Shown: positions 58,003-61,544 of the stretch, one piece after another
Layout of the letters: each line of letters opens with the position of its first letter
Numbering within the stretch: the stretch's first letter is position 1
From: Daejeonella sp. H1SJ63
GTDB taxonomy: Bacteria; Bacteroidota; Bacteroidia; Sphingobacteriales; Sphingobacteriaceae
Assembly: GCF_029360775.1 (NCBI RefSeq)
Contig: NZ_JARKMZ010000032.1
Span: forward strand, 1 to 64,000
DNA: 64,000 nt
Direction of reading: 5' to 3'
The notes under the pieces: generated by a model
Database searches by the model: none
The model's input: only the letters and a program-made list of their open reading frames with translations
Told to the model about the DNA's origin: nothing
Made by a program: the position numbers and the translations under genes

Positions 58003-58932
58003 ATGTACAAAAAAACGTTGTTTATTCTTTTATTTCTTGCAAGCGGGCTCTGTGTAAATGCTCAGCGATTAGGCTCATCTCCCGAATATATTAGAGAAAT
58101 GACCTCCCTGTGGAAGGGCGAACGTTTTGCAGATGGCCGGCCCAAAGTGCCCGATTTTCTTCTGGAGCGATTGGAGTACAATACTCTTGAACAGATTTGG
58201 GGTTATCTGTACGGTAAAGGCTACCGGAATCAGGTAGAGAAGAACTGGGTAATTCTTAAACCCGGACAGACTATGGTTGGACGTGTTCTGACTGCGCAGT
58301 TTATGCCTTCGAGGCCTGATCTGGATACATTAGTGAAAGCACAGGGAAGAAGGGAGGGACGTTCTCAGCGGGGTGGAAATAATATCTGGCCGATTGATAT
58401 CCTGACCAAAGGTGATGTATATGTTGCCGACGGATTTGGTAAAGTTAAAGACGGAACACTGATCGGATCGAGTTTGGGCAACTCAATTTATGCCAAAACA
58501 GGTAAGGGGGTTATTTTTTATGGGTCAATCAGGGATATGCAGGAACTTAAAGATACTCAGGGATTTAATGCCTGGGTAAAGGGGCACGATCCTTCCTACA
58601 TTAAAGACATGACCCCTACATCCATAAATGCACCGGTACGCATAGGGGAAGTGACAGTATTTCCGGGTGATGTGGCATTTGCCAATGAATACGGGGTAGT
58701 ATTTATTCCGGCGCACCTTGTTGAGGATTTAGTCAGGGCCAATGAATTAACCGGTTTACGCGATGAATTTGAGAGGGTTTTGCTCAAACAGGGTAAATAT
58801 CCTTCAGGAGAAATTCATGGCGACTGGGCAGATGTTATTAAAAATGAGTTCAGGGCATGGCTGGCAAAATATCCAAAGAAAACCATGTATACTCCTGAAC
58901 AACTGGATAAATATCTGGGGCAGAAACATTGA
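58003..58932 (+). CDS. Exported RraA-family (HMG aldolase-fold) protein
   Basis: A 309-residue protein with a Sec signal peptide (about 1-20, ending VNAQ). The mature part has the RraA/HMG aldolase fold: MVGRVLTAQF, DVYVADGFGKVKDGTLIGSSL, GVIFYGSIRDMQEL with the conserved arginine-aspartate (RD), and VFPGDVAFANEYGVVFIP. Cytoplasmic RraA regulates RNase E or acts as 4-hydroxy-4-methyl-2-oxoglutarate aldolase; an exported version suggests a lyase acting on an extracellular keto acid. It is 24 bases before a Tat-exported enolase-superfamily gene. Confidence 0.87.
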   Translation: MYKKTLFILLFLASGLCVNAQRLGSSPEYIREMTSLWKGERFADGRPKVPDFLLERLEYNTLEQIWGYLYGKGYRNQVEKNWVILKPGQTMVGRVLTAQFMPSRPDLDTLVKAQGRREGRSQRGGNNIWPIDILTKGDVYVADGFGKVKDGTLIGSSLGNSIYAKTGKGVIFYGSIRDMQELKDTQGFNAWVKGHDPSYIKDMTPTSINAPVRIGEVTVFPGDVAFANEYGVVFIPAHLVEDLVRANELTGLRDEFERVLLKQGKYPSGEIHGDWADVIKNEFRAWLAKYPKKTMYTPEQLDKYLGQKH

Positions 58933-58956
58933 TTTTAAAATTCAGACATCAATTAT

Positions 58957-60456
58957 ATGAAAAGTACTTTAAAACAATTAGTTGAAAAAAGCCGGGAAGA
59001 AGAAAAGGCCTATTCTGCTGCAAGACAGGCTGAAATCGATAGTCCGGAGACCGGAACAAACCGGAGAGATTTTCTGAAGAAGACAGCTCTGGGAGGAATC
59101 GCCCTGGGTGGACTGATGAGTCTGTCAGTTGAAGATACCATTGCTCAAACTACGCAGAATGTAAGACGTTCTTCCAATCCATCAGATTTGAAGATTACAG
59201 ATATGAGGTACTGCCTGACCAATGTAATGGGAGGTACGGCAATCATTAAGATTGATACTAATCAGGGTATTTATGGCCTTGGAGAGGTTAGGGATGCTGC
59301 AGATGCGCGTTATGCTTTGATGCTTAAAAGCCGTATTCTGGGAAGAAATCCATGTAATGTGGAAATGATCTTCAAGATCATTAAGCAGTTTGGCGGTCCT
59401 GCCCGTCAGGCCGGAGGTGTTTGTGCAGTTGAAATGGCATTATGGGATCTTTGCGGTAAGGCTTATGGCGTGCCTGCCTGGCAATTACTTGGAGGAAGAT
59501 ACCGGGATAAGGTAAGGTTATATGCTGATACTCCCGAAGCAGGAACACCTGCAGAACAGGAAAAGCTGATCAGATACCGTATTCAGGAGCAAGGTTATAC
59601 CTGGTTGAAAATGGATATTTCCATCAATGAATTAAAGGGAAAGCCGGGAACCACAGTGAATTCAAAGTTCTGGCAAAATCCTGCCGGAGATCTTGCGCAA
59701 TGGGGAGATATGACCAATCCGATGTCGTATGCAAATACAGCACATCCCTTTACGCAGGTTCAGATCACTGAAAAAGGCCTCGAAGAATTAAGCCAGATCG
59801 TTGATAATGTGCGGAATATGGTGGGTTATGACACTCCGATATCTACAGATCATTACGGACATTTTGATTTAAATAATAGTATTCGTTTGGGTAAAGCTTT
59901 AGATAAGTACAGACTGGCCTGGTTTGAAGATATGGTGCCATGGACTTACACCGAGCAATGGAAAACAATTTCGGATGCTCTGGAAACGCCTACCACCACA
60001 GGGGAGGATATGTATCTTCTGAAAGATTTCAAACCTCTGATTCATGCAAGAGCCGTTGATATTATTCATCCTGATCTTGCTTCATCGGGTGGTTTACTGG
60101 AAACTAAACGAATTGGAGATTATGCTGAAGAATATGGTATTGCTATGGCTATGCACCAGGCCGGAACACCGGTCTCTTTCATGGCAAGTGTGCATTGTGC
60201 TGCCGCCACGCAGAATTTCCTGGCTCTTGAGCATCATTCTGTAGATATTCCATGGTGGGAAGACCTGGTAAAAACAACAGATGGTAAGAAAATGATCGAA
60301 AAGGGTTTTGCCATTGTGCCGCTTAATTCTCCGGGATTAGGTATTGAATTGAATGAAGATGTGCTGAAACAGCACCTGAAATCAACTGATAAGAGCTATT
60401 TCGCGCCAACCAATGAGTGGAATGAAATACGCTCTCATGATAGGACTTACAGTTGA
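58957..60456 (+). CDS. Tat-exported mandelate racemase/muconate lactonizing-type enolase-superfamily enzyme
   Basis: A 499-residue protein. A twin-arginine leader TNRRDFLKKTALGGIALGG lies at about residues 27-45. The enolase-superfamily domain shows a KxD-type lysine (TWLKMDIS), metal ligands in PISTDHYGHFD (Asp), AWFEDMVPW (Glu) and TTTGEDMYLL (Glu/Asp), and a catalytic-type histidine in MAMHQAGTPVS. These enzymes dehydrate or isomerise sugar acids; export folded via Tat fits a metal-dependent enzyme. Substrate unknown. Its terminator is at 60481-60521. Confidence 0.88.
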   Translation: MKSTLKQLVEKSREEEKAYSAARQAEIDSPETGTNRRDFLKKTALGGIALGGLMSLSVEDTIAQTTQNVRRSSNPSDLKITDMRYCLTNVMGGTAIIKIDTNQGIYGLGEVRDAADARYALMLKSRILGRNPCNVEMIFKIIKQFGGPARQAGGVCAVEMALWDLCGKAYGVPAWQLLGGRYRDKVRLYADTPEAGTPAEQEKLIRYRIQEQGYTWLKMDISINELKGKPGTTVNSKFWQNPAGDLAQWGDMTNPMSYANTAHPFTQVQITEKGLEELSQIVDNVRNMVGYDTPISTDHYGHFDLNNSIRLGKALDKYRLAWFEDMVPWTYTEQWKTISDALETPTTTGEDMYLLKDFKPLIHARAVDIIHPDLASSGGLLETKRIGDYAEEYGIAMAMHQAGTPVSFMASVHCAAATQNFLALEHHSVDIPWWEDLVKTTDGKKMIEKGFAIVPLNSPGLGIELNEDVLKQHLKSTDKSYFAPTNEWNEIRSHDRTYS

Positions 60457-60588: not shown

Positions 60589-60891
60589 ATGATAAGATAC
60601 ATTCGTTTAACATTTACTTTTTACAATACCTACAGTATCTCAAGTATTGTCATTTCTTTACTTTCTGCAGGCATTTTGAGGATAGGTGGAATGTCTTTTT
60701 TGGTTATTGTTTTCTGGTTTAAACTTATTTCGATGGGATTTATCAGAATATTCATAAATAGTTACAGGGAAAATGAATATTTCTACTACCAAAACCTTGG
60801 TTTATCAAAGACTGCTTTATGGACCGGCAGCTTTGTATTTGATTTTGTTTTATTTCTGACTTTAATTTGGGGCGCCTATCATCTGAGATGA
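60589..60891 (+). CDS. Small membrane protein coupled to an ABC ATPase
   Basis: A 100-residue hydrophobic protein with about three membrane segments (about 17-33, 36-56, 75-97). A short polar loop with a conserved-looking YRENEYFYYQNLGLSK lies between segments 2 and 3. It ends with an ATGA overlap to the ABC ATP-binding gene, so the two are coupled. I recognise no family; it could be a minimal membrane subunit. It follows the enolase terminator by 67 bases and starts a new transcript. Confidence 0.8.
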   Translation: MIRYIRLTFTFYNTYSISSIVISLLSAGILRIGGMSFLVIVFWFKLISMGFIRIFINSYRENEYFYYQNLGLSKTALWTGSFVFDFVLFLTLIWGAYHLR

Positions 60892-61544
60892 AACATTTAC
60901 TGGAAGTTGATAGTGTTAGTTTGAATTTTTCAGGAAGGGTGATTCTCTCTGATATCTATTTAAAGGCTGAAACTGGAAAGATTGTTGGTCTTTTAGGTAG
61001 AAACGGACAAGGGAAATCCTGTCTGATGAAAATCATTTCCGGTACTTTAAAAGCAGAAAGCAAATCTGTTCGGTTTGACGGAAAAACTGTTTTTAAACTG
61101 ACCGGACGATCAGATCTTTTAGTATACCTGCCACAGTTTAATTTTATTCCTTCATTCCTTACATTATTGAGAGTTTTTAAAGATTTCTGTTTAAAGATTT
61201 CTGAGTTTGAAACGTATTTTCCTGAATTTATTTCAAAATCTAAATTGAAAATTTCAGAATTCTCTGGAGGAGAAAGACGTCTGATTGAGCTTTATGTTAT
61301 TATTAAATCAAAATCCCAATTTGCCCTGCTTGATGAGCCTTTTACCCATATCAGTCCCATGCAGATTGAAAGAATTAAAAAGTTGCTTATTCAGGAAAAA
61401 GAAAATAAGGGCTTTATTGTCTCTGATCATATGTTCAGAGATATTACTGAGATAGCTGATAGAATTTACATATTGAATGATAGAAAACTACATTTAACAA
61501 ATTCTGTAACAGATCTGGAAAAATTTGGATATGCCAGATTTTGA
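60888..61544 (+). CDS. ABC transporter ATP-binding protein
   Basis: A 218-residue ATPase. Walker A GRNGQGKSCL (near residue 39), Q-loop LPQFN, signature EFSGGERRL, Walker B FALLDEP, and H-loop IVSDHMFRD are all present, so it should be active. The start is ATG 60888, which overlaps the TGA of the small membrane-protein gene; an upstream TTG (60867) is inside that gene. No conventional large membrane subunit is adjacent. The transported substrate is unknown. Confidence 0.93.
   Translation: MKHLLEVDSVSLNFSGRVILSDIYLKAETGKIVGLLGRNGQGKSCLMKIISGTLKAESKSVRFDGKTVFKLTGRSDLLVYLPQFNFIPSFLTLLRVFKDFCLKISEFETYFPEFISKSKLKISEFSGGERRLIELYVIIKSKSQFALLDEPFTHISPMQIERIKKLLIQEKENKGFIVSDHMFRDITEIADRIYILNDRKLHLTNSVTDLEKFGYARF

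Follow-up and report, generated by a model that had tools for sequence, protein, structure and literature searches.

Why two adjacent genes of Daejeonella sp. H1SJ63 (Bacteroidota, Sphingobacteriaceae) should encode an RraA-fold protein and an enolase-superfamily (MR_MLE) enzyme that both look exported is the question raised by positions 1 to 64,000 of contig NZ_JARKMZ010000032.1 (assembly GCF_029360775.1), the 64,000-nucleotide stretch analysed here and called the window. Dehydration and deamination of acid sugars, as well as aldol cleavage, normally take place in the cytoplasm. The original prediction, made from the letters alone, held that the two genes carry Sec and twin-arginine (Tat) export signals and that their products could form a two-step breakdown of sugar acids outside the cytoplasm. 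With a probability of about 0.5, the pair would carry out the periplasmic dehydration of an aldonate followed by retro-aldol cleavage of the 4-hydroxy-2-oxo acid, the 2-oxo acids being imported by a BASS-like carrier.

Export signals were found on both proteins, as had been claimed (features and coordinates in Table 1). The N-terminus of the window RraA (MYKKTLFILLFLASGLCVNAQ), judged by reading, has the form of a Sec signal: it opens with charged residues, continues into a hydrophobic core and probably has its type I cleavage site near 'NAQ'. The enolase-superfamily protein (in the following, enolase) reaches 22.0 bits with the NCBIfam model TAT_signal_seq (TIGR01409, cut-off 16.7) and TatC is encoded in the same genome (212.3 bits), which together mark the enolase as a predicted Tat substrate. 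In residue-shuffled N-termini, Tat-like features arose in 6 and Sec-like features in 82 of 200,000 cases each, a crude test with thresholds of the analyst's own. The window genome, which encodes four RraA-family proteins and five MR_MLE proteins over cut-off, served as internal control: by reading, an exported-type N-terminus is present in all four of the former, and the RR motif is present in three and absent in two of the latter. Judged from these sequence features, the export signals on both window proteins are real.

The pair is conserved across many Bacteroidota. Among 151 genomes drawn from the same family (E-values up to 1e-60 for the enolase and 1e-15 for RraA), the enolase was detected in 18 and RraA in 31 genomes. 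An RraA gene lies within 8 kb of the enolase in 17 of these 18 and within 60 bp in 14; in the exception, G068, the RraA genes are further away or on other contigs. In a draw of 345 genomes from the phylum (E-values up to 1e-80 and 1e-40), the enolase was found in 13 and RraA in 20. All 13 enolase genomes hold both, and the 12 besides the window's own each have an RraA copy within 400 bp of an enolase copy. For the co-occurrence, Fisher's test gave a p of 6e-19, or 1e-17 when the window's own genome is left out; these values carry no correction for kinship. Named genomes were scanned as well and contributed the best 80 loci of a longer list, all from Bacteroidota and of unequal length. Together with 12 loci of the phylum draw these make up 92 loci, in which picking of open reading frames (ORFs) yielded 94 enolases of the clade; the enolase of L195 was missed by the picker and stands outside the 94. 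The 92 loci overlap the family draw (for example, L113, L114, L115, L132, L149, L173 and L187 share contigs with G104, G149, G114, G068, G144 and G063). RraA is encoded in the locus of 87 of the 94 enolases; in 78 cases the two genes share a strand and lie no more than 400 bp apart. Pairs more than 400 bp apart occur in L132, L164, L187 and with the second enolase copies of L198 to L201, and divergent pairs in L196 and L197. Of the best 80 named loci, 21 hold a second RraA-enolase pair. Among the 78 close pairs, the order RraA-enolase was found 46 times and enolase-RraA 32 times; because both orders recur, the neighbourhood probably formed more than once. Chance pairing was rejected on co-occurrence across genomes, linkage and the two gene orders.

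The neighbourhood check that the original prediction had proposed was thus passed, and neither outcome named there as speaking against it, a pair not conserved together or signal peptides absent in homologues, was encountered. The RRxF motif is kept in 94 of 94 enolases of the clade, and a hydrophobic N-terminal stretch is present in 81 of 83 distinct partner RraA proteins; of the two others, that of L115 is a contig-end fragment and that of L190 has an N-terminus that does not read through.

In the relatives, the loci hold more than two genes, and a pathway consisting of the two genes only was rejected on this ground. Among the best 80 named loci, the neighbours (labelled by best BLAST match to representatives, not by curated annotation) comprise a BASS-like carrier in 47, SusC in 39, SusD in 38, a DUF4440 (SnoaL-like) protein in 31 and FecR in 23 loci. 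An FGGY kinase and UxuA were found in 11 loci each, proteins like 2-keto-3-deoxygluconate (KDG) kinase and pyrroloquinoline quinone (PQQ) dehydrogenase in 10 each and, more rarely, 2-keto-3-deoxy-6-phosphogluconate (KDPG) aldolase and MFS proteins in 7 each and a semialdehyde-dehydrogenase-like protein in 5. Representatives of UxuA, the carrier (SBF domain), DUF4440, the PQQ propeller, MFS, SusD, the TonB-dependent receptor and FecR exceed their Pfam cut-offs, the KDPG aldolase representative passes its NCBIfam cut-off and that of FGGY gluconokinase stays below its own (432.8 versus 649). A typical order in Flavobacteriaceae is FecR, SusC, SusD, enolase, RraA, DUF4440, BASS, KDG kinase and KDPG aldolase (L134, L138, L145). 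In L148, L158 and L163, UxuA-type proteins 61–65% identical to a Tat-signal-bearing one are encoded together with a PQQ dehydrogenase-like protein; UxuA matches that are about 34% identical and lie on the opposite strand probably represent the cytoplasmic form.

For the substrate, both reactions, their order and the transport, we infer the following route. A sugar or sugar acid would enter the periplasm via SusC/SusD, and where needed an aldose would be oxidised to the aldonate by the PQQ dehydrogenase. The Tat-exported enolase would dehydrate the aldonate to a 2-keto-3-deoxy (4-hydroxy-2-oxo) acid. The Sec-exported RraA would act on this acid, most likely as a metal-dependent pyruvate aldolase releasing pyruvate and an aldehyde, and the PanS/BASS-like carrier would bring 2-oxo acids into the cell. 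Of the two halves, dehydration is the more secure one: family, active-site residues and neighbours all speak well for a dehydratase. The aldolase step of RraA is the weakest part and only plausible. Of the two-step breakdown as first proposed, the catabolic setting has held up and has proved larger than two genes, the dehydratase half is well supported and the aldolase half is plausible.

The window enolase exceeds the Pfam cut-offs for both MR_MLE_C (154.4 versus 29.4 bits) and MR_MLE_N (41.2 versus 22). Asp298, Glu324, Glu350, Lys218, Asp373 and His400 are each conserved in all 111 sequences of the main clade; as in the MR subgroup, the first three would be the metal ligands, the lysine a catalytic residue of the second strand and the last two the catalytic dyad. 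Both domains, the three ligands, the lysine of the second strand and the Asp-His dyad are shared with gluconate, galactonate and mannonate dehydratases. The window enolase differs from these in its Tat-exported type, in the histidine of the third strand, which is mostly Tyr or Phe in the clade, and in that it misses their equivalog cut-offs (183.9 versus 311 for galactonate, 160.5 versus 750 for gluconate and 160.3 versus 550 for mannonate dehydratase); among the NCBIfam matches listed, no equivalog cut-off is passed. Two positions behind the metal-binding Asp298 (111 of 111), position 300 is Tyr in 88, Phe in 11, Trp in 6 and Thr in 5 main-clade sequences, with His299 and His302 conserved in 110 each, and is His in 39 of 54 other enolases. 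This histidine presumably acts as general acid in the galactonate-dehydratase-like subgroup. The Asp-His-Tyr-Gly-His motif with its near-invariant flanking histidines hints at an altered acid catalyst. The single-chain model of the enolase (mean predicted local distance difference test, pLDDT, 82.4) has its best match in 2qq6, an entry that names no function; gluconate and mannonate dehydratases follow lower in the match list, and the structural matches include 3twa, 3tw9 and 4kws.

Membership of the window RraA in the RraA-like family is clear from Pfam PF03737 (67.7 bits, cut-off 24.5). In an alignment of 128 proteins longer than 250 amino acids, Arg177-Asp178 is present in 127, Gly155 in 128 and Glu248 in 127. 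Glu248 falls, in the sequence alignment only, in the region of Glu-199 of 3noj, the second acidic metal ligand. The single-chain model (mean pLDDT 89.1, predicted template modelling score 0.83) yielded Z-scores of 22.0 to 24.1 to four RraA-fold structures and of 14.9 to 24.1 over all twelve RraA-fold entries; rows below this group (Z 7.0 and less) were not used. By E-value, its top Foldseek match is 3noj (9.9e-15; Z 22.0 over 208 residues), the 4-hydroxy-4-methyl-2-oxoglutarate/4-carboxy-4-hydroxy-2-oxoadipate (HMG/CHA) aldolase of Pseudomonas putida F1, a class II pyruvate aldolase of the RraA fold. Both proteins share the fold and the Arg-Asp motif, and the substrates of the aldolase are 4-hydroxy-2-oxo acids, the same class as the would-be product of the enolase. 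In PMC5065237, Arg-123 is described as an active-site residue and Asp-124 as metal-binding. The window RraA is unlike this aldolase in being only about 20% identical, of exported type and extended at the C-terminus, and it scores below the equivalog TIGR02798 (50.8 versus 304.5).

The partner of RraA varies, and in a tree the RraA subfamilies follow it. The tree was a quick build from 145 proteins longer than 270 amino acids (142 distinct), each labelled by the closest lyase up to 2.5 kb away; this limit left out some neighbours (L012), the RraA of L195 carries the label 'none' and long-branch rows (L011, L213, L156 and others) stand in unsure places. All labels together require 14 changes versus 43.1 in shuffles, and the 27 partners of a second enolase require 2 versus 25.1. 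Because the shuffles ignore kinship, this describes clustering and not independent events. An enolase-superfamily gene stands beside an RraA copy in 16 of the 20 phylum genomes with RraA, from the main clade in 13 and from a second clade in 3 (L205, L209, L210). In the other four (L206, L207, L211, L212), a deacetylase-like amidohydrolase, a DgaE-like pyridoxal phosphate (PLP) protein with an RR start and a BASS-like carrier were found instead; the amidohydrolase of L207 passes NF006689 (451.4 versus 371) and a RidA-type protein (PF01042) is present. The window genome has amidohydrolase/DgaE-like clusters as well (L012, L013), and PanS/BASS-like carriers are encoded at these other RraA loci. 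RraA and the carrier therefore appear to be the shared core, with a variable lyase that is a dehydratase in some loci and an ammonia-lyase-like protein in others. By analogy with D-glucosaminate chemistry, both kinds of lyase would end in 2-keto-3-deoxy acids.

A broader proposal, which can be put forward only tentatively, is that in many Bacteroidota acid sugars are broken down completely outside the cytoplasm by a non-phosphorylative route. It would consist of aldose oxidation, then either aldonate dehydration by Tat-exported enolase-superfamily or UxuA enzymes or amino-aldonate deamination by an exported DgaE-like lyase with exported deacetylase and RidA-like proteins, and then aldol cleavage by exported RraA as the hub; only small 2-oxo acids would cross the inner membrane, via PanS/BASS-like carriers.

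Several findings weigh against periplasmic aldonate dehydration and aldol cleavage by the pair, some of them favouring other explanations. RraAS2 of Streptomyces coelicolor (5x15), filed as a member of the RNase ES inhibitor family, has both the highest Z (24.1) and the best sequence match among PDB entries (E 4e-20) to the window RraA, and for this reason structure alone does not favour an aldolase. Together with a family name that derives from RNase E regulation and with the lack of any other recognised pathway gene in the window locus, this would suit proteins that are truly exported yet unrelated or regulatory, for example with RraA as an RNase regulator, and adjacent by chance. The RNase-regulator models do not fit the window RraA, which remains far below their cut-offs (NF006875 40.4 versus 136; TIGR02998 24.8 versus 241.25), and export would keep it away from RNase E. 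Co-occurrence, both gene orders and partner-tracking speak against chance. This disfavoured explanation is very improbable, and the RNase-regulator role was rejected on the profile scores although the nearest structure belongs to that family.

Aldolase activity is also put in question by FlDet of Flavobacterium sp. UMI-01, which according to PMC8563752 is an RraA-family dehydratase/decarboxylase (KDGR dehydratase/decarboxylase) that turns 2-keto-3-deoxy-glucarate into alpha-ketoglutaric semialdehyde and shows no activity towards KDG, KDPG or 4-hydroxy-2-oxoglutarate. Family, phylum and a 2-keto-3-deoxy sugar acid as substrate are common ground with the window RraA; as described in the same paper, FlDet differs in its 237 amino acids, in having no signal peptide and in a gene partner that is a semialdehyde dehydrogenase and not an enolase-superfamily enzyme (PMC8563752). 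Since FlDet is a Bacteroidota RraA-family enzyme with such an activity, the periplasmic substrate might instead be an aldarate, and RraA might convert the 2-keto-3-deoxy-aldarate to alpha-ketoglutaric semialdehyde, from which alpha-ketoglutarate would later be formed by oxidation. L229, a likely FlDet orthologue with a similar N-terminus, 237 amino acids and an adjoining semialdehyde dehydrogenase, lacks a signal peptide as judged by reading; across 193 residues it shows 28% identity with the window RraA. The semialdehyde-dehydrogenase-like gene of five of the best 80 named loci would fit as well. NF006093, whose cut-off of 208 is exceeded by six FlDet-like proteins (L226 to L231) and presumably by FlDet itself, is the best NCBIfam match of the window RraA; the score of 103.7, however, lies well under that cut-off. 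In three of the five loci, moreover, the semialdehyde dehydrogenase gene is at the locus edge on the other strand, and the neighbours (PQQ dehydrogenase-like, UxuA-type and KDG-kinase-like) suggest aldonates, not aldarates, as substrates. An aldarate route with a FlDet-like RraA is unlikely.

Of the 10 named loci with a KDG-kinase-like gene, 7 have it directly after the carrier. Because such genes (10 of 80 loci) and KDPG aldolase (7 of 80) are present, KDG may be imported uncleaved in some loci. RraA could then have no cleavage role and assist another step, such as enol-keto conversion, epimerisation by a reversible aldol reaction or lactone handling, with KDG being taken up by the BASS-like or MFS carrier and phosphorylated inside. 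The order carrier, KDG kinase, KDPG aldolase in Flavobacteriaceae-type loci (L134, L138, L141, L143, L145, L148) accords with this, as does an MFS protein (best match a D-galactonate transporter subfamily, under cut-off) that replaces the carrier in some loci. One RraA paralogue of the window genome (L011), the sole exception in the alignment, has lost Arg-Asp and kept its export signal. Against such a helper stand the aldolase-type Arg-Asp in the other 127 of 128 proteins and the HMG/CHA aldolase as top Foldseek match by E-value, and in the literature passages available no precedent for these roles was found in the RraA fold. A helper function of RraA is on balance doubtful.

The proposed aldonate route is further weakened at the window locus itself, where only the two enzymes stand together: SusCD and a BASS-like carrier are lacking, and no SusC/SusD-like frame was found by reading among ORFs of at least 90 amino acids between 54 and 64 kb, so that the locus does not qualify as a polysaccharide utilisation locus (PUL). 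For seven of the 94 enolases, the locus contains no RraA (L129, L133, L136, L149, L155, L165, L173), some of them on short or cut contigs. Under their NCBIfam cut-offs are the carrier (PanS, 238.6 versus 400), the representatives of KDG kinase (217.8 versus 440) and PQQ dehydrogenase (455.7 versus 833) and the DgaE-like protein of L207 (196.7 versus 385). The window enolase has Tyr300 in place of the usual third-strand histidine. In the comparison of active sites and structures suggested at the outset, the aldolase-type Arg-Asp and the enolase ligands were retained, RraAS2 was the nearest structure by sequence and Z, and the third-strand histidine was replaced.

In comparison with described systems, the pair follows familiar chemistry but apparently represents a new variation in its compartment, its pairing and its type of locus. 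Searches of one open-access library (subscription papers and preprints were outside the scope, which makes an absence weak evidence) brought up no account of such a pairing or of a pathway with an exported RraA. The oxidative chitin (ong) pathway, as far as the available passages of PMC9537276 go, includes a deacetylase, a PLP deaminase, a RidA protein and a KDG kinase and is predicted to be cytoplasmic. It resembles the present route in outer-membrane uptake, conversion of an acid sugar to KDG and the KDG kinase, and its deacetylase, PLP deaminase and RidA protein parallel sister clusters in the window genome. The difference lies in the acid-sugar enzymes, predicted as cytoplasmic there and with export-like N-termini here; no RraA or enolase-superfamily enzyme is named in those passages (PMC9537276). 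With Bacteroidota PULs, many loci of the relatives share the FecR-SusC-SusD head. Unlike typical PULs, they have exported acid-sugar enzymes and a 2-oxo-acid-type carrier after SusCD, and the window copy is without SusCD.

If the proposal is true, Bacteroidota would have a separate means of feeding on aldonates and amino-aldonates, a conserved exported route tied to SusCD and to a carrier of the 2-oxo-acid type. Such a route would also provide a function for exported 'RraA family' proteins, which databases name after the RNase regulator, and testable functions for proteins labelled 'mandelate racemase-like', 'SelA-like' or 'DUF4440'.

Table 1. Features of the RraA-enolase pair in the window (positions counted from the first letter of the window).
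Feature	Position	Strand	Remarks
RraA-fold protein	58003..58932	+	309 amino acids, exported-type; proposed to act on the 2-keto-3-deoxy acid of its neighbour
Sec signal peptide, RraA residues 1-21	58003..58065	+	predicted from sequence and hydropathy; cleavage site placed by reading
Arg177-Asp178 of RraA	58531..58536	+	equivalent to Arg-123/Asp-124 of HMG/CHA aldolase (alignment to 3noj)
Enolase-superfamily (MR_MLE) enzyme	58957..60456	+	499 amino acids, Tat-exported-type; proposed sugar-acid dehydratase
Twin-arginine motif NRRDFLKK, enolase residues 35-42	59059..59082	+	TIGR01409 match; hydrophobic stretch next
Lys218-x-Asp220, second-strand KxD	59608..59616	+	Lys 111/111, Asp 110/111 main-clade sequences
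Asp298-His-Tyr-Gly-His302	59848..59862	+	metal-ligand Asp; usual +2 His mostly Tyr/Phe
Span of metal ligands Glu324 and Glu350	59926..60006	+	each 111/111 in main clade, 54/54 in other enolases
Span of Asp373/His400 catalytic dyad	60073..60156	+	each 111/111 in main clade; in the other 54, Asp 45 and His 54

Both genes are intact frames separated by a gap of 24 bp. Compared with the close relative L047, each gene has a pairwise ratio of nonsynonymous to synonymous substitution rates (dN/dS) of about 0.04, although synonymous sites are nearly saturated. A pseudogene or decaying locus was rejected on the intact frames and this ratio. The pair is flanked by mutS on one side and an ABC/NlpC region on the other; in L047, mutS and NlpC genes occupy the corresponding sides, and an extra enolase paralogue is present. 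Between the pair and the NlpC/P60 gene, positions 60589-61544 of the window hold a 100-amino-acid membrane-like ORF and an ABC ATPase, in the place where L047 has the further paralogue. The Bacteroidota-type promoter pattern was matched four times in the window versus 1.3 expected and not just upstream of the pair, an uninformative result.

On contigs C21 and C24 of the window genome, four loci (L011, L012, L013, L066) contain clusters with deacetylase-like amidohydrolases, RR-start DgaE-like PLP proteins, RidA-type proteins and exported-type RraA, further with BASS-like carriers, a glycerate kinase and a KDPG/KHG aldolase, not all of them in each. A possible interpretation is an exported amino-sugar-acid pathway parallel to the cytoplasmic ong pathway. 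The exported-type RraA paralogue at L011:9693-10610, in which Tyr and Leu replace Arg-Asp, is possibly a non-catalytic or re-purposed copy; its cluster also encodes a Tat-type enolase, a DgoK-family kinase (PF05035), a KDPG-aldolase-like protein and an MFS-like carrier. A separate second group of exported-type RraA proteins (about 257–279 amino acids), weakly similar to the window RraA, was found in phylum genomes (L248, L249, L252, L253, L254, L255). The PDB entry 5ir2, titled as a 'cellulase' of a gut microbe, adopts the RraA fold, with Z 23.0 against the model of the window RraA, and its title may be a misnomer. L048 and L058 (relatives G109 and G114) each contain an array of six enolase paralogues with RR-type starts, accompanied by RraA and a UxuA-type protein. 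In L058, SusC and SusD stand at the head of the array, and the end of a SusD lies at the edge of L048. Each enolase of these arrays may handle a different stereoisomer.

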